A stretch of DNA of 48,383 nt. It comes from Blastococcus tunisiensis. GTDB lineage: Bacteria > Actinomycetota > Actinomycetes > Mycobacteriales > Geodermatophilaceae. Below the pieces are notes generated by a model. The model saw only the letters and a list, made by a program, of their open reading frames with translations, was not told where the DNA came from and made no database searches. Numbering within the stretch: the first letter of the stretch is position 1; every line of letters begins with the position of its first letter. A program made the translations under genes and the position numbers. The DNA is taken from positions 1-48,383 of the forward strand of contig NZ_FOND01000029.1 in assembly GCF_900112815.1 (NCBI RefSeq), given 5' to 3'. Below are positions 350 through 12,404 of the stretch, piece by piece.

Positions 350-1324
350 TCAGCCCAGGCGGACGGTGAGCCGCACGCGCGCGCCCCCGTCGTCCCCGGA
401 GATGTCGACGTGGTCGCACAGCTGGCGGGCCAGCCACAGCCCCATGCCGCCGCGCGACAGGTCCTCCCCGTGCGCCGGGCCGTAGCCGGCGAACGGGTCG
501 TCGAAGCCGGGGCCCCGGTCGTCGATCGTGCAGACGACGCGGTCGGCACCCACCCACAGCCGCAGGCTCACCGGCGGCCCGCCGTGCCGGACGGCGTTGG
601 AGGTCATCTCGTCGACGGCGAGCAGGTAGTCCTCGACCGTGTCGGAGGACGCGACCACGGTCGACAGCTCGGCGGCGACGGCGTGCCGCAGGCCGACGAA
701 GTCGCCGACGTCCCGGGCCCACAGGCGGGGCGGCGTCTCCTCCAGGGGCTCGGCCGGCACGGGCAGGGAGCGGAGGTAGTCCGCCGGGGCGACGAACTCC
801 GGGTTGGGGCGGCGTCCGCCGGGCCCGGTCAGGCAGGAGTGCGTCCGACGGGCCGTCTCCAGGAGGGGGTCGGGCAGCCGCTGTGCGTCGAACACGCACA
901 GGCCCCACAGCGGCCACTCGCCGAGCGCCACGTTGATCACCGACTCGTAGCGCTGCCACTCCAGCCAGTCGCGCTCGGTCTCGCCGAAGTCGACCTCGCC
1001 GACGACGCGGACCCGGCTCACCCCTTCGGCGGCGCGCTGCTCGGCCAGCCGCCGGAAGGCCGTGATGGCCGTGGGGGTGCGGGCCCGGTACACGTCGTCG
1101 CGGTCGAGGACGTGCACCCGGGGGTCGCTGCCGAGGGCGTCCCGCAGGACCGTCGCGGTCTCGTCACGGGTGACCACGACGGCCGCCTCCCCGGCGGCCA
1201 GGCCCTCGAGCAGGAAGGGGACGGCGGTGGCGGCGAGCTCGTCGGGACCGTCGTGGATCAGCGCGTCGTGCAGGTAGCGGTCGGAGGGCAGGCCTGCCCA
1301 GTCGACCACCGACGACCCCGTCAC
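350..1324 (-). CDS. RsbA-like regulator: MEDS sensory domain plus anti-sigma-type ATPase
   Basis: The protein is 324 aa from a GTG start at 1324. Residues about 15-170 match the MEDS (DcmR sensory) domain found in actinobacterial RsbA-family proteins. Residues about 205-322 form an RsbW/SpoIIAB-like GHKL ATPase with an N-box (E239 and N243), a DRGPGF G1 loop (269-274) and a GGMGLWL G2 loop (292-298). There is no phosphoacceptor histidine box, so it should act as an anti-sigma or switch kinase on an unlinked partner; no sigma factor or antagonist is nearby. It is followed by a strong terminator, so it is probably monocistronic. The GTG is chosen because the MEDS homology starts just after it; an in-frame extension upstream has low-complexity Arg/Pro-rich sequence. 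Confidence 0.82.
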   Translation of the reverse strand: MTGSSVVDWAGLPSDRYLHDALIHDGPDELAATAVPFLLEGLAAGEAAVVVTRDETATVLRDALGSDPRVHVLDRDDVYRARTPTAITAFRRLAEQRAAEGVSRVRVVGEVDFGETERDWLEWQRYESVINVALGEWPLWGLCVFDAQRLPDPLLETARRTHSCLTGPGGRRPNPEFVAPADYLRSLPVPAEPLEETPPRLWARDVGDFVGLRHAVAAELSTVVASSDTVEDYLLAVDEMTSNAVRHGGPPVSLRLWVGADRVVCTIDDRGPGFDDPFAGYGPAHGEDLSRGGMGLWLARQLCDHVDISGDDGGARVRLTVRLG

Positions 1325-1489
1325 TGCCCACCCCGAGAACTCGCGTTGCCACCCGACGCGGGTGCTGCCGCTCCACGGTAGGCGATCGGCGCCGCGGTGG
1401 CTCCCGTGCGGGCCCGCTCCGTCGTTTGACGGCGGAGCGGGCGGGGGACGGGGAGGGGAGCAGCGAGCACCACCGACGGGAGAGCACCC

Positions 1490-2980: not shown

Positions 2981-3325
2981 TCAGTGCAGCTGCGACCGCC
3001 AGTCGGCGGGCACCCGGCCGCGGGGTCCGGGGACGGGCTGGTCGAGGGGCCGGTGCTGCGGCGGGGTCAGCTCCGGCCCGGTGACCGGCCGTTCGGCGGA
3101 GAAGTCCCAGAACCAGGCCTCACCCGGCTCGAAGCTGCGTACCACCGGATGACCGGCGTCCGCGGCGTGGGTGCGGGCGTGCTGGTTCGGCGAGGAGTCG
3201 CAGCAGCCGACGTGGCCGCACCGGGCGCAGCGGCGCAGGTGGAACCACCAGCTGCCGGTCGCCTCGCAGTCGGCGCAGCCGGGACCCGACGGTGGCGCCG
3301 TGGCATCGATCGCCGGACCGGTCAT
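2981..3325 (-). CDS. UBP-type zinc-finger protein
   Basis: A 114-aa protein that is essentially one ZnF-UBP module. Cys/His pairs are visible as CADC, CARCGHVGCC, HARTH and the late His of AGHPVV, followed by the SFEPGEAWFWDF strand typical of the fold. In eukaryotes this fold binds ubiquitin C-termini; in actinobacteria short stand-alone copies are common and their ligand is unknown. ATG at 3325 is preceded by GGGAG. It diverges from the DUF5709 gene with only 30 bp between start codons. Confidence 0.8.
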   Translation of the reverse strand: MTGPAIDATAPPSGPGCADCEATGSWWFHLRRCARCGHVGCCDSSPNQHARTHAADAGHPVVRSFEPGEAWFWDFSAERPVTGPELTPPQHRPLDQPVPGPRGRVPADWRSQLH

Positions 3326-3355: not shown

Positions 3356-3811
3356 GTGGAACCCGGGATCTACGGTACGGACGGCACCGACCCCGAGGAA
3401 GCCTCCGGGCTGCTCGAGGCGTCGGACACCCTGGACGACGTCCGCGGGGTGCGCGACGTCCTCGACACCGGTTGGTCCCCGCCGGAGCGACCGTGGGCCG
3501 TCGACGACTGGGGGACGACGGAGGCCGAGGAGTCCGCCGGGGAGAGCCTGGCCGGCCGGCTGGCCCGCGAGCTGCCCGACGGGACCGACGCGGACGGGGA
3601 CGGGGACGGGCTGGGCGACTCCTCCGACACCGACGGCGAGCTGATCGACGACGAGGTGGGGGATGCGCGGGCCGGCCGGCTGGTCGACGCCGACGACGGC
3701 GGGACCGTCGACACCGACGACGAGCTGTGGGCCCGGGACGAGGGCATCGACGGCGCAGCGGCGTCGGCGGAGGAGGCGGCCGTGCACGTCGTCCGCGACC
3801 GCGACGTCTAG
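3356..3811 (+). CDS. DUF5709-family acidic protein
   Basis: A 151-aa, strongly acidic protein (many Asp/Glu/Gly, almost no hydrophobic core). It carries the actinobacterial DUF5709 signature: a short EEASGLLEASDTL segment, then DDVLDTGWSPPERPW (the family's typical D-G-x-SPPERP block), then acidic low-complexity sequence. There is no signal peptide or membrane segment. Function is unknown. The GTG start at 3356 is preceded by GGAAGG at 8-nt spacing; upstream in-frame sequence belongs to the opposite-strand zinc-finger gene. Confidence 0.8.
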   Translation: MEPGIYGTDGTDPEEASGLLEASDTLDDVRGVRDVLDTGWSPPERPWAVDDWGTTEAEESAGESLAGRLARELPDGTDADGDGDGLGDSSDTDGELIDDEVGDARAGRLVDADDGGTVDTDDELWARDEGIDGAAASAEEAAVHVVRDRDV

Positions 3812-3918: not shown

Positions 3919-5577
3919 ATGGGCAGACCGGTCCTCCTCAGCGTGGACGACGACCCGGGGGTCTCCCGTGCGGTCGCGCGTGACCTCCGCCGCAGGTACG
4001 GCGAGGAGTACCGCGTGCTGCGGGCGTCGTCGGGCCCCGAGGCGCTCGACGCCCTCCGGGAGCTGAAGCTGCGCGGGGACGCGGTGGTGGCCGTGCTCGC
4101 CGACTACCGGATGCCGGAGATGAACGGCATCGAGTTCCTCGAGAAGGCGATGGACCTGTTCCCGCGGGCCCGCCGGGCGCTGCTCACCGCCTACGCCGAC
4201 ACCGACGCCGCGATCGCGGCGATCAACGTCGTGGACGTCGACGCCTACCTGCTCAAGCCCTGGGACCCGCCGGAGGAGAAGCTCTACCCGGTCGTGGACC
4301 AGATGATCGAGGCGTGGCGGGAGAGCCCCGACGCGGTGGTCGAGGACGTCAAGCTGGTCGGCCACCGCTGGTCGGCGCCGTCCTTCCGGGCGCGGGACCT
4401 GCTCGCCCGCAACGCCGTCCCGTACCGCTGGTACAGCGCGGAGGAGGCGGAGGGGCGGCGGATGCTCGAGGCGGCGGAGGCCACCGCCGACGACGTCCCG
4501 CTGATCGTCACCCCCGAGGGCGTGGTGCTGAAGGCGCCCACCGAGAGCGAGCTGGCCGCCGTGGTGGGACTGAGCGTCGAGGCGGAGTCGGACTTCTACG
4601 ACCTCGTCGTCGTCGGCGGCGGACCGGCCGGGCTCGGCGCGGCCGTCTACGGCGCCTCCGAGGGGCTGCGGACGGTCCTCGTCGAGCGGGAGGCGACCGG
4701 CGGGCAGGCCGGGCAGAGCAGCCGGATCGAGAACTACCTCGGCTTCCCCAACGGCGTCTCGGGCAGCCAGCTCGCCGACCGGGCGCGCCGCCAGGCCCGG
4801 AAGTTCGGCGCCGAGCTGCTGCTCACCCGCGATTGCGTCGCCCTGGAGGCGCACGGCTCCAAGCGGGTGCTGCGGTTCGCCGACGGCGGCACCATCGGCG
4901 CGCACGCCGTCGTCCTCGCCACCGGGGTGTCCTACCGCAGCCTCGGCGTCCCCGGGGCCGACGGGCTGACCGGCCGGGGCGTCTACTACGGCTCGGCGAT
5001 GACCGAGGCGGCGGCCTGCAAGGACCAGAAGGTGATCATCGTCGGCGGCGCCAACTCGGCGGGGCAGGCAGCCGTCTTCTTCGCCCGGTACGCCGAGTCG
5101 GTGCACCTGCTGTGCCGCGGTCCGGCGCTCGAGGCCTCGATGTCGCACTACCTGATCGAGCAGCTGGCGGCGATCGGCAACGTGCACGTGCACACCTGCA
5201 CCACCGTCGCCGAGACGCACGGCAGCGACCACCTGGAGCAGGTCACCCTGCTGGACGCGCGCAGCGGGGAGCGGAGCACCGTCCCGGCCGGGCACCTGTT
5301 CGTCTTCATCGGCGGGGAGCCGCGGACGTCCTGGCTCGACGGGGTGGTCGTGCGCGACGACCGCGGGTTCATCCCGACCGGCCCGGGGCTGCTCGGGAAC
5401 GGGCGCCGCCCGCACGGCTGGGCGCTCGACCGCGACCCGTACTTCCTGGAGTCGAGCCTGCCCGGCGTCTTCGTGGCCGGGGACGTGCGGGCGGAGTCGG
5501 TGAAGCGGGTGGCGTCGGCGGTCGGCGAGGGCGCGATGGCGGTCACCCTCGTGCACCGGTACCTGGGGGAGCGGTGA
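3919..5577 (+). CDS. Fused response-regulator receiver / glutaredoxin-like / thioredoxin-reductase-like flavoprotein
   Basis: 552 aa in three parts. Residues 4-133 are a CheY-like receiver with acidic pocket D10/D11, phosphoacceptor D62 in LADYRMP, T90 and K113 in LKPW. Residues about 145-220 look like a glutaredoxin fold in which the CxxC is replaced by WSAPS. Residues 226-552 are TrxR-like, with FAD GGGPAG (233-238), NADPH GGANSAG (376-382) and a final FVAGDVR FAD block. Where bacterial TrxR carries CxxC (about 358-368) this protein reads YYGSAMTEAAAC, so the dithiol is lost and classical thioredoxin reduction is unlikely. Its TGA overlaps the GTG of the histidine kinase gene (GTGA), implying coupled expression. 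I infer a redox or NAD(P)H-linked output controlled by phosphorylation. Confidence 0.9.
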   Translation: MGRPVLLSVDDDPGVSRAVARDLRRRYGEEYRVLRASSGPEALDALRELKLRGDAVVAVLADYRMPEMNGIEFLEKAMDLFPRARRALLTAYADTDAAIAAINVVDVDAYLLKPWDPPEEKLYPVVDQMIEAWRESPDAVVEDVKLVGHRWSAPSFRARDLLARNAVPYRWYSAEEAEGRRMLEAAEATADDVPLIVTPEGVVLKAPTESELAAVVGLSVEAESDFYDLVVVGGGPAGLGAAVYGASEGLRTVLVEREATGGQAGQSSRIENYLGFPNGVSGSQLADRARRQARKFGAELLLTRDCVALEAHGSKRVLRFADGGTIGAHAVVLATGVSYRSLGVPGADGLTGRGVYYGSAMTEAAACKDQKVIIVGGANSAGQAAVFFARYAESVHLLCRGPALEASMSHYLIEQLAAIGNVHVHTCTTVAETHGSDHLEQVTLLDARSGERSTVPAGHLFVFIGGEPRTSWLDGVVVRDDRGFIPTGPGLLGNGRRPHGWALDRDPYFLESSLPGVFVAGDVRAESVKRVASAVGEGAMAVTLVHRYLGER

Positions 5578-7004
5578 CCACGACCGAGCGCCGGCTTGTC
5601 CCCGACGAGCTGCGCGGGCTCTTCCTCTTCGAGGACCTCGACGACGACCAGCTGGCCTGGGTGTCGGCCAACGGCGACGTCGTCGACTGCCCCGCAGGCA
5701 CGGACGTGTCGGTCGAGGGCGAGCCGGCGGAGTGCTTCTTCGTGCTGCTCGAGGGGACCATGACCATGGTCCGGCTCGTCGGGGGCAGCGAGGTCGAGAC
5801 CGTGCGGACGTCGCACCGCGGCGTGTACTCGGGCGCCGTGCAGTTCTACTTCGGCGACCGGCTCGAGCAGCGGTACCCCGCGACCGTCCGCGCGGTCACC
5901 GACTGCAGCTTCCTGGCGCTGCCGGCCGGGCCGTTCGCCGCCGTCTTCCGGCAGTGGTACCCGATGGCGGTGCACCTGCTGGAGGGCATCTTCGTCGGGC
6001 AGCGGAACTCCGCCGAGCTGGTCGGCCAGCGGGAGCGGCTGCTGGCGATGGGGAAGCTGACCGCTGGGCTCACCCACGAGCTGAACAACCCCGCGGCGGC
6101 GGCGTCCCGTGCGGCCGATGCGCTGCGCGACCGCTTCGCCGGCATGCGGCACAAGCTGGCGCTGCTGTCCGAGGGGAAGATCGACGGCGAGGTGCTCCGG
6201 TCGCTGACCGGGCTGCAGGAGGAGTTCGTCGCCCGCATCGGCAGCGCCCGGGAGCTGCCCACCCTGGAACGCTCGGACCTGGAGGACCGGCTGGGCGACT
6301 GGCTCGGCGAGCACGAGGTGTCCCAGCCCTGGGACCTGGCCGGGGTCTTCGTCGCCGCAGGGCTGACCCCCGAGGACCTCGACCAGGTCACCGACGCCGT
6401 CGCGCCGACCTTCCTGGAACCCGCCCTGCGCTGGCTGGCCTACACCGTCGAGACGGAGACGCTGCTGCTGGAGATCACCGACAGCACACGCCGGATCTCG
6501 GACCTCGTGGACGCGGCCAAGCAGTACTCCCAGATGGACCGGACGCCGCACCAGCCCACCGACGTGCACGCCGGGCTGGACGCCACCCTGGTGATGCTCG
6601 GCGGCAAGATCGGGCCGGGGATCACCGTGGTGAAGGACTACGACCGCGGCCTGCCGCAGGTGCCCGCGTACGCCGGTGAGCTGAACCAGGTGTGGACCAA
6701 CCTGATCGTCAACGCCCTGGACGCCATGGCCGGCGAGGGGACCCTGACCCTCCGCACCGGCCGGGACGGGGCCTGCGCGCTGGTGGAGGTCCGCGACAGC
6801 GGCCCCGGGATCCCGGCCGAACTGCGCCCGCGGCTGTTCGAGCCGTTCTTCACCACCAAGCCGGTCGGGCAGGGCACCGGACTGGGGCTGGACGTCTCGT
6901 GGCGGATCGTCGTCAAGCGCCACGGTGGCGACATCCGGGTCAGCTCGTCGCCCGGGGACACCCGCTTCCAGGTGCTGCTGCCGCTCGCCGAGCCCACCAC
7001 CTGA
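5574..7004 (+). CDS. Cyclic-nucleotide-binding-domain sensor histidine kinase
   Basis: 476 aa, soluble, with no transmembrane segment. Residues about 15-135 form a CAP_ED/cNMP-like beta-roll. A dimerisation helix follows with H168 in LTHELNNPAAAA, then a long helical insert (about 180-330) and a HATPase domain with N-box (NQVWTNLIVNALDAM), G1 DSGPGIP, F-box FEPFFTTKP and G2 GTGLGL. The start GTG overlaps the stop of the receiver/TrxR fusion by 4 bp, so the two are translated together and the kinase is the obvious phosphodonor for D62 of its neighbour. The canonical phosphate-binding cassette of true cAMP receptors is not obvious, so the ligand is open. Confidence 0.88.
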   Translation: MTTTERRLVPDELRGLFLFEDLDDDQLAWVSANGDVVDCPAGTDVSVEGEPAECFFVLLEGTMTMVRLVGGSEVETVRTSHRGVYSGAVQFYFGDRLEQRYPATVRAVTDCSFLALPAGPFAAVFRQWYPMAVHLLEGIFVGQRNSAELVGQRERLLAMGKLTAGLTHELNNPAAAASRAADALRDRFAGMRHKLALLSEGKIDGEVLRSLTGLQEEFVARIGSARELPTLERSDLEDRLGDWLGEHEVSQPWDLAGVFVAAGLTPEDLDQVTDAVAPTFLEPALRWLAYTVETETLLLEITDSTRRISDLVDAAKQYSQMDRTPHQPTDVHAGLDATLVMLGGKIGPGITVVKDYDRGLPQVPAYAGELNQVWTNLIVNALDAMAGEGTLTLRTGRDGACALVEVRDSGPGIPAELRPRLFEPFFTTKPVGQGTGLGLDVSWRIVVKRHGGDIRVSSSPGDTRFQVLLPLAEPTT

Positions 7005-9750: not shown

Positions 9751-9789
9751 CACCTCTATTGGTGGACGACGGACCGAAGGAGCGCCACA

Positions 9790-11172
9790 GTGTTCTTCAC
9801 CCAGTACTACCTCGACTGCCTGTCGCAGGCGTCGTACCTCGTCGCGGACGAGACGAGCCGGCAGGCCGTGGTGGTCGACCCCCGTCGCGACGTCGCCGAG
9901 TACCTGGCCGACGCCGAGGCCCACGGCCTGACGATCGTCGGCGTCATCGACACCCACTTCCACGCCGACTTCCTCGCCGGCCACCTGGAGCTGGCCGCGG
10001 CCACGGGAGCGTGGATCGGCTTCGGGCGGCGGGCGGAGGCCGACTTCCCCATCCGCGGGCTGGCCGACGGCGAGCGGATCTCCCTCGGCGACGTGACCCT
10101 GCAGATCATGGAGACCCCCGGGCACACCCCGGAGTCGATCTCCGTGCTGGTCTTCGAGCACGCCGACGACGAGGTGCCCTACGGAGTCCTGACCGGCGAC
10201 GCGCTCTTCATCGGTGACGTCGGCCGGCCCGACCTGCTCGCCTCCATCGGGGTCACCGCCGACGAGCTGGGCCGGATGCTCTACGCCTCGGTGCAGCAGA
10301 AGCTCATGGCGCTGCCCGACGAGGTCCGTGTCTTCCCGGCCCACGGTGCGGGCTCGGCGTGCGGCAAGAACCTCTCGACGGAGCGGCAGTCGACCATCGG
10401 CGAGCAGCGAGCGATGAACTACGCCTGCCAGCCGATGACCGAGGACCAGTTCCTCGCCATCGTCACCGAGGGGCAGCCCTCGGCCCCGGACTACTTCGTC
10501 TACGACGCGATCCTCAACCGCCAGCAGCACCCGGTCTTCGACGCGGCGGCCGCCCCGGTGCCCCTGGACCTGGCCGAGCTGCTCGAGCGGCAGGCGGCGG
10601 GGGCGTTCGTGCTGGACGCCCGCGAGCCGCAGGAGTTCGCCGCCGGGCACCTGGCCGGCGCGGTGAACGTCCCCGCCGACGGCCGGTTCGCCGAGACCTC
10701 CGGCATGGTCGTGCGGCCCGACGAGGAGATCGTCGTCATCGCCCCGCAGGACCGTGAGGAGGAGATCGTCGTCCGGCTGGCCCGGATCGGTTTCGACCGG
10801 GTCGCGGGGTACCTGCGCGAGCCCGAGGGCGCCTTCCTCGGCGCACCGGAACGCGTGGTGCGTGCCAGCCGCGTCACGGCGAGCGAGCTCGACGAGGCCC
10901 TGGAGCGGCCGGTGCCGCCGACGGTCGTGGACGTCCGCAACACCGGTGAGCTGATCACCGGGAGCATCCCCGGCGCCGTCAACATCCCGCTCGCCCAGCT
11001 GCCGAAGCGGCTGGCGGAGATCCCCCGGGACCGACCCGTCGTCGTCCACTGCGCCGGCGGCTACCGCTCCAGCGTGGCCGCCTCCGTGCTGCGCAAGGCC
11101 GGCTGGACCGACGTCTCCGACCTGCTCGGCGGCTTCGCCGCCTGGGCGCTCGCCAACCGGCTGCCCGCCTGA
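9790..11172 (+). CDS. cstB: CstB-like persulfide dioxygenase-rhodanese fusion
   Basis: 460 aa with the three-part layout of CstB. Residues 1-250 are a metallo-beta-lactamase persulfide dioxygenase with THFHADFLAGH (H56, H58, D60, H65) and later HTPES and GDALFIGDVGRPD metal-site motifs. Residues about 265-355 are a rhodanese-homology domain lacking the catalytic Cys (APQDREEE where the Cys loop should be). Residues about 365-460 are an active-type rhodanese with C421 in HCAGGYRSS. The expected role is to oxidise low-molecular-weight persulfides to sulfite/thiosulfate in the cytosol. It is followed 26 bp later by the SQR gene and preceded by a CstR-type operator, so persulfide-induced derepression is likely. 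Confidence 0.87.
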   Translation: MFFTQYYLDCLSQASYLVADETSRQAVVVDPRRDVAEYLADAEAHGLTIVGVIDTHFHADFLAGHLELAAATGAWIGFGRRAEADFPIRGLADGERISLGDVTLQIMETPGHTPESISVLVFEHADDEVPYGVLTGDALFIGDVGRPDLLASIGVTADELGRMLYASVQQKLMALPDEVRVFPAHGAGSACGKNLSTERQSTIGEQRAMNYACQPMTEDQFLAIVTEGQPSAPDYFVYDAILNRQQHPVFDAAAAPVPLDLAELLERQAAGAFVLDAREPQEFAAGHLAGAVNVPADGRFAETSGMVVRPDEEIVVIAPQDREEEIVVRLARIGFDRVAGYLREPEGAFLGAPERVVRASRVTASELDEALERPVPPTVVDVRNTGELITGSIPGAVNIPLAQLPKRLAEIPRDRPVVVHCAGGYRSSVAASVLRKAGWTDVSDLLGGFAAWALANRLPA

Positions 11173-11198
11173 ATTCCGCGCTCTCGAAGGAGTGAGCC

Positions 11199-12404
11199 AT
11201 GCCACCCACCGATGCCCACCACGAGGTCCTGATCGTCGGCGGCGGCACCGCCGGCATCAGCGTCGCCGCCCGCCTGCGGCGGGCCGGGCAGGAGGACGTC
11301 GGCATCATCGAGCCGGCGACCACGCACTACTACCAACCGTTGTGGACCCTGGTCGGCGGCGGTCGGGCACCCATCGCCGAGAGCGCCCGGCCGGAGGCGA
11401 CGGTCATGCCGAAGGGCACCGACTGGATCCAGGACGCCGCCGAGGACGTCGATCCCGTCGACCGGCGGGTGTTCCTGCGGTCGGGCCGCCGGGTGACCTA
11501 CGACCACCTGGTCGTGGCCCCCGGCATCCAGCTGGACTGGGACCGCGTGCCCGGCATGACCGAGGCCCTGGACACCCCGCAGGTAGCCAGCAACTACACC
11601 TACGGCCTGGCGCCCAAGACCTGGTCGCGGATCAGGGCGATGCGCAGCGGCACGGCGGTGTTCACGATGCCGGCAGGCCCGATCAAGTGCGCCGGCGCCC
11701 CGCAGAAGATCGCCTACCTGGCGGCCGACCACTGGCGCGAGCAGGGGGTGCTGAAGGACATCCGGATCGTGCTCGTCCTCCCCACGCCGGCGATGTTCGG
11801 CGTGAAGGTCTTCTCCGACGAGCTCGACCGCGTCGTCGCCAGGTACGGCATCGAGGTGCACCTCGACAGCGAGGTCACCGAGATCGACGGCGAGGGCCGG
11901 TCGGTGATCGTCACCGACAACGCCAACGGCACCAAGGAGGCCGTTCGCTACGACTTCCTGCACGTCGTCCCGCCGCAGTCGGCCCCGGACTGGCTCACGG
12001 CCACGCCGCTGGCCGACCCGGCCAACCCGAACGGCTACGTGGAGATCGACAAGGAGACGATGCGGCACGTCCGCTTCCCGGAGGTCTTCGCCCTCGGTGA
12101 CGCCGGTTCCTCACCCAACTCCAAGACCGGGGCGGCGATCCGCAAGCAGGCGCCGGTCGTGGTGGCGAACCTCCTGGCGGCCATGGCCGGGACGGAGCCG
12201 CCGGCCCGGTACGACGGCTACGCGTCCTGCCCGATCACCACCGCGCGCGACCGGATGCTGCTCTGCGAGTTCGACTACTCGCTGCAGCCGCACCCGACGA
12301 TCCCGTTCATCGACACCACCCACGAGCGCTACGACATGTGGCTGGTCAAGCGCTACGGGCTGCCGGCCATGTACTGGAATCTCATGCTCAGGGGCCGGAC
12401 CTGA
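11199..12404 (+). CDS. sqr: Sulfide:quinone oxidoreductase
   Basis: 401-aa flavoprotein that should oxidise H2S at the membrane face, pass electrons to quinone and deliver sulfane sulfur to a thiol acceptor. The N-terminal FAD site GGGTAGIS is at 14-21. The two redox Cys expected of SQR are plausible at C164 (GPIKCAGAPQK) and C344 (GYASCPITT); the C-terminal aromatic/basic tail (YDMWLVKRYGLPAMYWNLML) suits membrane association. It follows the CstB-like gene in the same operon with its own GAAGGAG site, so sulfide oxidation and persulfide removal are co-expressed. Confidence 0.88.
   Translation: MPPTDAHHEVLIVGGGTAGISVAARLRRAGQEDVGIIEPATTHYYQPLWTLVGGGRAPIAESARPEATVMPKGTDWIQDAAEDVDPVDRRVFLRSGRRVTYDHLVVAPGIQLDWDRVPGMTEALDTPQVASNYTYGLAPKTWSRIRAMRSGTAVFTMPAGPIKCAGAPQKIAYLAADHWREQGVLKDIRIVLVLPTPAMFGVKVFSDELDRVVARYGIEVHLDSEVTEIDGEGRSVIVTDNANGTKEAVRYDFLHVVPPQSAPDWLTATPLADPANPNGYVEIDKETMRHVRFPEVFALGDAGSSPNSKTGAAIRKQAPVVVANLLAAMAGTEPPARYDGYASCPITTARDRMLLCEFDYSLQPHPTIPFIDTTHERYDMWLVKRYGLPAMYWNLMLRGRT

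Follow-up and report, generated by a model that had tools for sequence, protein, structure and literature searches.

A two-component system of Blastococcus tunisiensis with a putative flavoenzyme output that lacks both redox dithiols

What does a response regulator do when its output part is built like a disulfide reductase without catalytic cysteines? The question is raised by a locus of Blastococcus tunisiensis within a 48,383-nucleotide stretch of DNA (positions 1 to 48,383 of NZ_FOND01000029.1; contig C7, genome size 5.0 Mb), referred to here as the window. The locus encodes a 552-residue flavoprotein, in which a receiver (REC) is followed by a glutaredoxin (Grx)-like domain and a thioredoxin reductase (TrxR)-like module, together with a histidine kinase containing a domain of the cyclic nucleotide-binding (cNMP) type. 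An earlier note, made from the sequence of the window, had proposed a two-component system with a flavoenzyme as its output, in which both disulfide sites are lost. This is still the best-supported reading, although the note had overlooked a neighboring zf-UBP zinc-finger gene. With moderate confidence, we regard the locus as a two-component system in which phosphorylation would switch an NAD(P)H flavoenzyme that has no disulfide relay.

Response regulators have few kinds of enzymatic output. Such outputs are known as a class; the enzyme here derives from a disulfide reductase whose cysteine pairs are gone. If the reading is true, a two-component system would govern redox chemistry without a transcriptional step, by direct phospho-control of a flavoenzyme that uses a pyridine nucleotide. 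The family has dropped a whole disulfide relay under strong constraint, its new chemistry is directly testable, and bacterial zf-UBP proteins would gain a partner gene.

A scan of genome contigs yielded 540 relatives of the flavoprotein, of which the best 80 were kept ("best 80"), and 149 Actinomycetota genomes (the phylum sample) were used alongside the genome of B. tunisiensis itself. The nearest relatives belong to Blastococcus and other Geodermatophilaceae. The family alignment comprised 61 dithiol-less proteins, 37 of them with a receiver (REC members), and the tree was rooted with five Grx-TrxR fusions and one TrxR after masking of the CxxC columns. A contig-cut copy (L096) and an interrupted copy (L117), both with a kinase nearby, were dropped before counting, as were repeat fetches of the same loci; the partial fusion L126 was left out of the tree only. 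The PDB match list of the whole model was filled by TrxR and REC structures, and the Grx-like domain was therefore folded and searched alone.

Loss of both cysteine pairs

Both folds that the earlier note had named were recovered in predicted structures. Residues 142-222 are predicted to adopt the Grx fold, and domain matches and the predicted structure agree on FAD and NAD(P) domains of the TrxR fold in residues 226-552. The cysteines that define these folds as disulfide enzymes are absent, as the note had stated: S152 and S155 form an SxxS in place of the Grx CxxC, and GSAM stands in place of the CATC of TrxR, where the acid that follows the redox CxxC of low-Mr TrxRs is also missing (G358-S-A-M361-T362). 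The pyridine nucleotide need not be the NADPH that the note assigned to the module: HRRxxxR, which we take to be the NADPH-binding motif, is not kept in the window flavoprotein, and NADH is therefore possible.

The loss extends to the whole family. No CxxC was found at the Grx or the TrxR site in any of the 61 aligned dithiol-less proteins, and the first position of the Grx-site CxxC is never Cys among them. The Grx site mostly reads W-S-x-x-S/T, compared with WCPDC in most Grx-TrxR fusions, and its first Cys is replaced by Ser in 36/37 REC members (Asn in one) and in 50/61 of all members. The TrxR site mostly reads G-S/A-A-x-T/S, compared with CATCD; its first Cys is replaced by Gly in 36/37 REC members and its acid by Thr or Ser in 33/37. 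A lone Cys near the TrxR site, replacing Y357, occurs in L087. P194, presumably the cis-Pro position of such folds, is kept in 60/61 members.

The nearest dithiol-bearing relatives in our sample are Actinomycetota Grx-TrxR fusions without a receiver, represented by six sequences of the phylum sample (L118, L123-L126 and L129). They share the order of Grx domain and TrxR module, 31-36% identity with the window protein and, in complete copies, a similar C-terminal motif (GDVR..S.K..AS..GEG). They differ in that both CxxC motifs are intact, whereas the dithiol-less family has conserved residues of its own. No aligned sequence had lost only one CxxC, among dithiol fusions that numbered six with the fragment G084 left out. 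Compared with low-Mr TrxR, the window protein lacks the CxxC and the general acid D, contains an insert before GVFVAGDVR, and carries the receiver and Grx-like domain at its N-terminus. AhpF likewise has an N-terminal extension before a TrxR-like module according to a review of Deinococcus thiol reductases (PMC8945050), but each of its two parts contains redox-active Cys, and a receiver is absent.

When the catalytic columns were masked, all 61 dithiol-less members formed one group (support 0.78), within which the 37 REC members also grouped together (support 0.90). Since the grouping persists with these columns masked, both cysteine pairs were probably lost once, from a Grx-TrxR fusion ancestor. 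I270, Y357, Q383, M408, Y411, R530, V531 and H546 are identical in 61/61 members and in 0/6 dithiol-bearing relatives, where the position of M408 is a gap in all six. R164, S247 and S267 occur in 60/61 members and likewise differ from all six. Among the best 80, every one of these eleven positions is conserved in 80/80 except Y357 (79/80). Some of the residues lie beside the lost CxxC and some in the NAD motif (GGANSAGQ); others are in the segment that reads RQ in TrxR, which we take to lie near the flavin there. Because the module keeps invariant residues of its own, it is not decaying. Family members were seen in four phyla, and the gene is accessory, with a member at E 1e-70 or better in 34/57 Geodermatophilaceae genomes.

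Pairing of receiver and kinase

The receiver is complete, as the earlier note had recognized. Its acidic pocket (D10, D11, D12), phospho-acceptor (D62), T90 and K113 are all present, and these residues are invariant in 50/50 aligned sequences. A kinase homolog lies downstream of 80/80 relatives in the best 80 of 540, at a spacing of no more than ~0.2 kb except for L047 (~1.3 kb), and downstream of 18/18 intact-receiver members, window included, from the phylum sample and the B. tunisiensis genome; across these genome samples, an intact receiver has a kinase just downstream in 98/98 cases. Within the available flanking sequence, a kinase was found for 0/16 degenerate-receiver members and 0/5 receiver-less members. 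This recount was made with the zf-UBP part of a fused query removed; L109, L112 and L115 have no kinase in it, their earlier matches having come from that zf-UBP part. Both paralogs in the B. tunisiensis genome, at C20:52363-54009 (-) and C40:87721-89361 (+), are among the 16 degenerate-receiver members. Their pockets are lost (D62 replaced by A or G, K113 by R or V) and no kinase is present in the available flank, as if they had been released from phosphorylation.

If selection acts on phosphotransfer, the receiver pocket would be expected to degenerate wherever the kinase is absent, as it does here. Receiver and kinase thus appear to stand or fall together, which supports the flavoenzyme as the output, and the coupling of the kinase to the flavoprotein that the earlier note had described would have gene adjacency and receiver integrity as its basis. 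On plasmids, the receiver was tested and found intact at five loci (L158-L162). At four of them, in Deinococcus, Caballeronia, Gloeothece and Tsukamurella, the gene immediately downstream is annotated 'ATP-binding protein'; the two of these four that were scanned (Deinococcus and Caballeronia) contain HATPase_c and cNMP_binding.

The input side of the module can vary. Two of the five receiver-less members were tested and both carry Pfam cNMP_binding, so that receiver and cNMP domain interchange in front of the same flavin module, as would fit input domains attached to an enzyme that serves as the output. Some records of this branch are labeled 'thioredoxin-disulfide reductase' by NCBI; the two that were checked (L163 and L165) have no CxxC, which contradicts the name. 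These cNMP-domain proteins have the same dithiol-less module as the window protein, and some adjoin zf-UBP, but they differ in lacking the receiver and, in the five receiver-less members checked, the kinase. REC-thioredoxin reductase regulators are listed as a 'Mycobacterium-like' combination in an archaeal two-component census (PMC5847659). The available part of that source names the combination only, with no mention of missing cysteines, kinase, zf-UBP or function. Among the matches listed in the open-licence PMC literature, REC-TrxR fusions were encountered in no other form than this named combination.

The kinase frame can begin with a GTG inside the flavoprotein stop codon, as the note's overlap implied. 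Pfam matches were cNMP_binding (40.9 bits; cut-off 27.5), HATPase_c and, below threshold, HisKA, and the kinase looks cytoplasmic and apparently soluble. The column of His168 holds His in 106/107 kinase rows, a count that includes repeat fetches, and a gap in the other row. Cyclic AMP (cAMP)-binding domains have a G-E and an R in the phosphate-binding cassette. In an alignment that included PKA, the window kinase reads SGAVQFYFGD..RYPATVRA, without the canonical Glu and Arg; among the kinase rows shown, L103, L104 and L105 keep both and L097 keeps Glu alone. The cNMP name therefore describes the fold correctly, but a cyclic nucleotide as the ligand is doubtful. Judging from these residues, canonical cNMP sensing by the kinase is improbable, and a cAMP-sensing role, which was considered, is weakened.

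The zf-UBP neighbor and plasmid loci

The gene that the earlier note had passed over encodes a protein whose nearest structure, 2ida (E 2.5e-21), is listed as 'hypothetical protein' and is, we assume, bacterial. The sequence resembles the zinc fingers of USP13, USP5 and HDAC6, and this similarity to eukaryotic fingers is the only basis on which binding of a ubiquitin or ubiquitin-like C-terminus was considered as a possible function. In the open-licence PMC literature on zf-UBP, the titles among the matches listed all concern eukaryotic proteins or their viruses.

Adjacency of the two genes recurs. A zf-UBP gene is found in the flanks of 16 of the best 80 loci by strict motif and of 19 by BLAST, in varied orientations and under nine genus-level labels, one a misnamed Bacillus. 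Of the close orthologs in Geodermatophilaceae, window included, 23/28 have it no more than 4 kb away; outside this family the proportion is lower. Kinase and zf-UBP were the only neighbors that recurred at four or more genus labels in the best 80 plus window, in a comparison of frames of at least 80 residues with antisense and overlapping frames set aside. In the phylum sample, zf-UBP and the flavoprotein share 21/149 genomes against 6.0 expected (p 5e-12, uncorrected for kinship), and 10/31 zf-UBP genomes have no member of the flavoprotein family. There, zf-UBP adjoins eight members: five with receiver and kinase, one degenerate (G106) and two receiver-less (G050, the same as L112, and G092, the same as L115), one of which was tested and is cNMP-fused. 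In three genomes of the sample (L145, L146 and L147), a zf-UBP domain forms the C-terminal part of a Na_H_Exchanger antiporter, an example of its occurrence outside this system.

On plasmids, 18 records were common to the 40 flavoprotein records listed (of 109) and the 50 zf-UBP records listed (of 87), and in 17 of the 18 the two genes are within 2 kb of one another, although several are near-copies of one Rhodococcus region; the other 22 of the 40 flavoprotein records are not among the 50. A Deinococcus plasmid zf-UBP gene has no annotated 'FAD-dependent oxidoreductase' within 5 kb. Stress genes surround several of these loci. DnaK, GrpE, ClpB and thioredoxin (TrxA) are near the flavoprotein and zf-UBP pair on Rhodococcus pDK2 (L164), and Clp ATPase, Hsp20, HdeD and PsiE are near it on Paraburkholderia pI (L167); both regions resemble what we take to be mobile protein-quality-control islands. 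Relatives of the flavoprotein are near Dps on a Rhizobium plasmid, a universal stress protein on a Streptomyces plasmid and S-(hydroxymethyl)mycothiol dehydrogenase on a Tsukamurella plasmid. A role of the family in stress is suggested by these neighbors. The class is unmentioned in the available parts of the Deinococcus review (PMC8945050) and of a review of the cyanobacterial thioredoxin system (PMC9025218), though plasmid records of both groups carry it, and among the matches listed in the open-licence PMC literature, no experimental study was recognized as being on the flavoprotein family.

Mechanism, alternatives and gene layout

It is hypothesized that the kinase, sensing through a cNMP-fold domain without the canonical cAMP residues, would phosphorylate D62, and that the resulting change at the receiver face would alter the turnover of the TrxR-fold module or the docking of a partner. 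Since the module cannot run the ancestral NAD(P)H-FAD-CxxC-Grx relay, the reduced flavin would hand electrons from NAD(P)H straight to an acceptor other than a disulfide, broadly as TrxR-like ferredoxin/flavodoxin reductases do; these show that reductase activity is possible in a TrxR fold that has no CxxC (PMC10294844). For a dedicated partner, the zf-UBP protein is the most likely candidate.

Several observations weigh against this account. The outgroup of the tree is small, with six sequences only. Three of the 16 'degenerate' receivers (L106, L111 and L132) fail at T90 only and nonetheless have no kinase in the available flank, which for L106 extends just 0.9 kb downstream. On the Nostoc edaphicum plasmid (L160), the receiver is intact and a transposase follows the flavoprotein gene; the kinase-like gene 2.6 kb further on encodes a REC-HATPase protein and is not of the cNMP type. 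Within Geodermatophilaceae, zf-UBP is nearby in only 2/9 members of middling identity and 0/25 of low identity, and its presence is untied to that of the flavoprotein (30/34 genomes with the flavoprotein, 20/23 without), so that the link between the two rests on adjacency. The stress genes vary by lineage with no one function recurring, and at six other plasmid loci of the family there is neither a chaperone gene nor one for Clp, Dps or a universal stress protein.

The flavin module could instead be the sensor, its redox or NAD(P)H state gating the receiver or kinase, with another regulator or the zf-UBP protein as the real output. The lack of a canonical ligand site in the window kinase would fit such a role. 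So would a cNMP histidine kinase with a C-terminal zf-UBP fusion, which adjoins a receiver-flavoprotein gene in one genome (L139:3777-5534, -) and by which zf-UBP may act on the signaling side. We nevertheless consider a sensor role unlikely, because the degenerate-receiver and receiver-less members keep the flavin module with no kinase in the available flank, and the family-specific residues sit in the flavin and NAD domains. It is rather less likely still that the protein is in effect a TrxR-like ferredoxin/flavodoxin-NAD(P)+ reductase (FNR) with a receiver attached. Such FNRs have the TrxR fold without the CxxC, are active reductases, and were in many cases first annotated as TrxR (PMC10294844). 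The window protein shares that lack of CxxC, and its model keeps the pyridine-nucleotide fold, but it has regulatory domains in front and is far closer in sequence to TrxR (best E 2.7e-44) than to FNR (best E 5.6e-15). Its nearest relatives found are fusions with intact dithiols, so that the CxxC loss looks independent of that in FNRs. The neighbor comparison revealed no further recurrent gene, though a small ferredoxin could escape a comparison of frames of at least 80 residues.

Scaffolds usually drift at cofactor sites. A pseudoenzyme scaffold, with TrxR and Grx folds that serve solely for receiver-controlled partner binding, would account for the absence of all catalytic cysteines and of the TrxR acid, yet we judge it quite improbable, as the glycine motifs for FAD and NAD are retained and newly conserved residues have arisen around the lost site. 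The least credible alternative is a disulfide reductase with moved cysteines, a shift that the earlier note had named as the outcome that would undo its proposal. C367, the only recurring Cys, could belong to a shifted active site and is present in 80/80 of the best 80, but in the alignment it occurs in 36/61 members and is absent in 25/61, and no second Cys column reaches 10/61. The shifted-cysteine reading was rejected, as C367 is single, partnerless and not universal.

Beyond the favored reading of a phospho-switched flavoenzyme, we tentatively propose a broader picture that is possible rather than probable. An ancestral Grx-TrxR fusion would have shed both dithiols together to become a separate TrxR-fold class of regulated, disulfide-independent flavoenzymes, found across phyla and partly in stress islands, with an interchangeable receiver, dead-receiver or cyclic-nucleotide input and a zf-UBP partner. 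The Grx domain of this class may have evolved into a GST-like site for a low-molecular-weight thiol, in view of the prevalent Ser at the Grx site and the conserved P194.

The features of the locus are collected in Table 1. A DUF5709 match at ~3653-3811 (+) lies between the zf-UBP and flavoprotein genes.

Table 1. Positions of the flavoprotein, kinase and zf-UBP genes and their domains in the window.
Feature	Position	Strand	Basis
Flavoprotein, receiver-Grx-like-TrxR-like, 552 aa	3919..5577	+	Open reading frame, domain matches
Receiver domain, residues 7-118; D10, D11, D62, T90, K113 intact	3937..4272	+	
Grx-fold domain, residues 142-222; W151-S152-A-P-S155 replaces WCxxC	4342..4584	+	
TrxR-fold FAD/NAD(P) module, residues 226-552; G358-S-A-M361 replaces CATC, T362 replaces acid D	4594..5574	+	
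Histidine kinase, possible start overlapping flavoprotein stop	5574..7004	+	
Kinase cNMP-binding-type domain, residues 39-126; Glu and Arg of the canonical ligand site substituted	5688..5951	+	
Kinase candidate phospho-acceptor His168 (LTHELNN)	6075..6077	+	
Kinase HATPase_c, residues 369-472	6678..6989	+	
zf-UBP zinc-finger protein, 114 aa, divergent from flavoprotein gene	2981..3325	-	Pfam zf-UBP, 55.3 bits (cut-off 22.7)

Elsewhere in the window, a MEDS sensory domain and a HATPase_c_2 domain were found at 353-1414 (-). The segment at 9772-12404 (+) encodes a protein of the metallo-beta-lactamase fold that carries two rhodanese domains, followed by a Pyr_redox_2 flavoprotein (Pfam matches only); the pair resembles a persulfide dioxygenase and a sulfide:quinone reductase.

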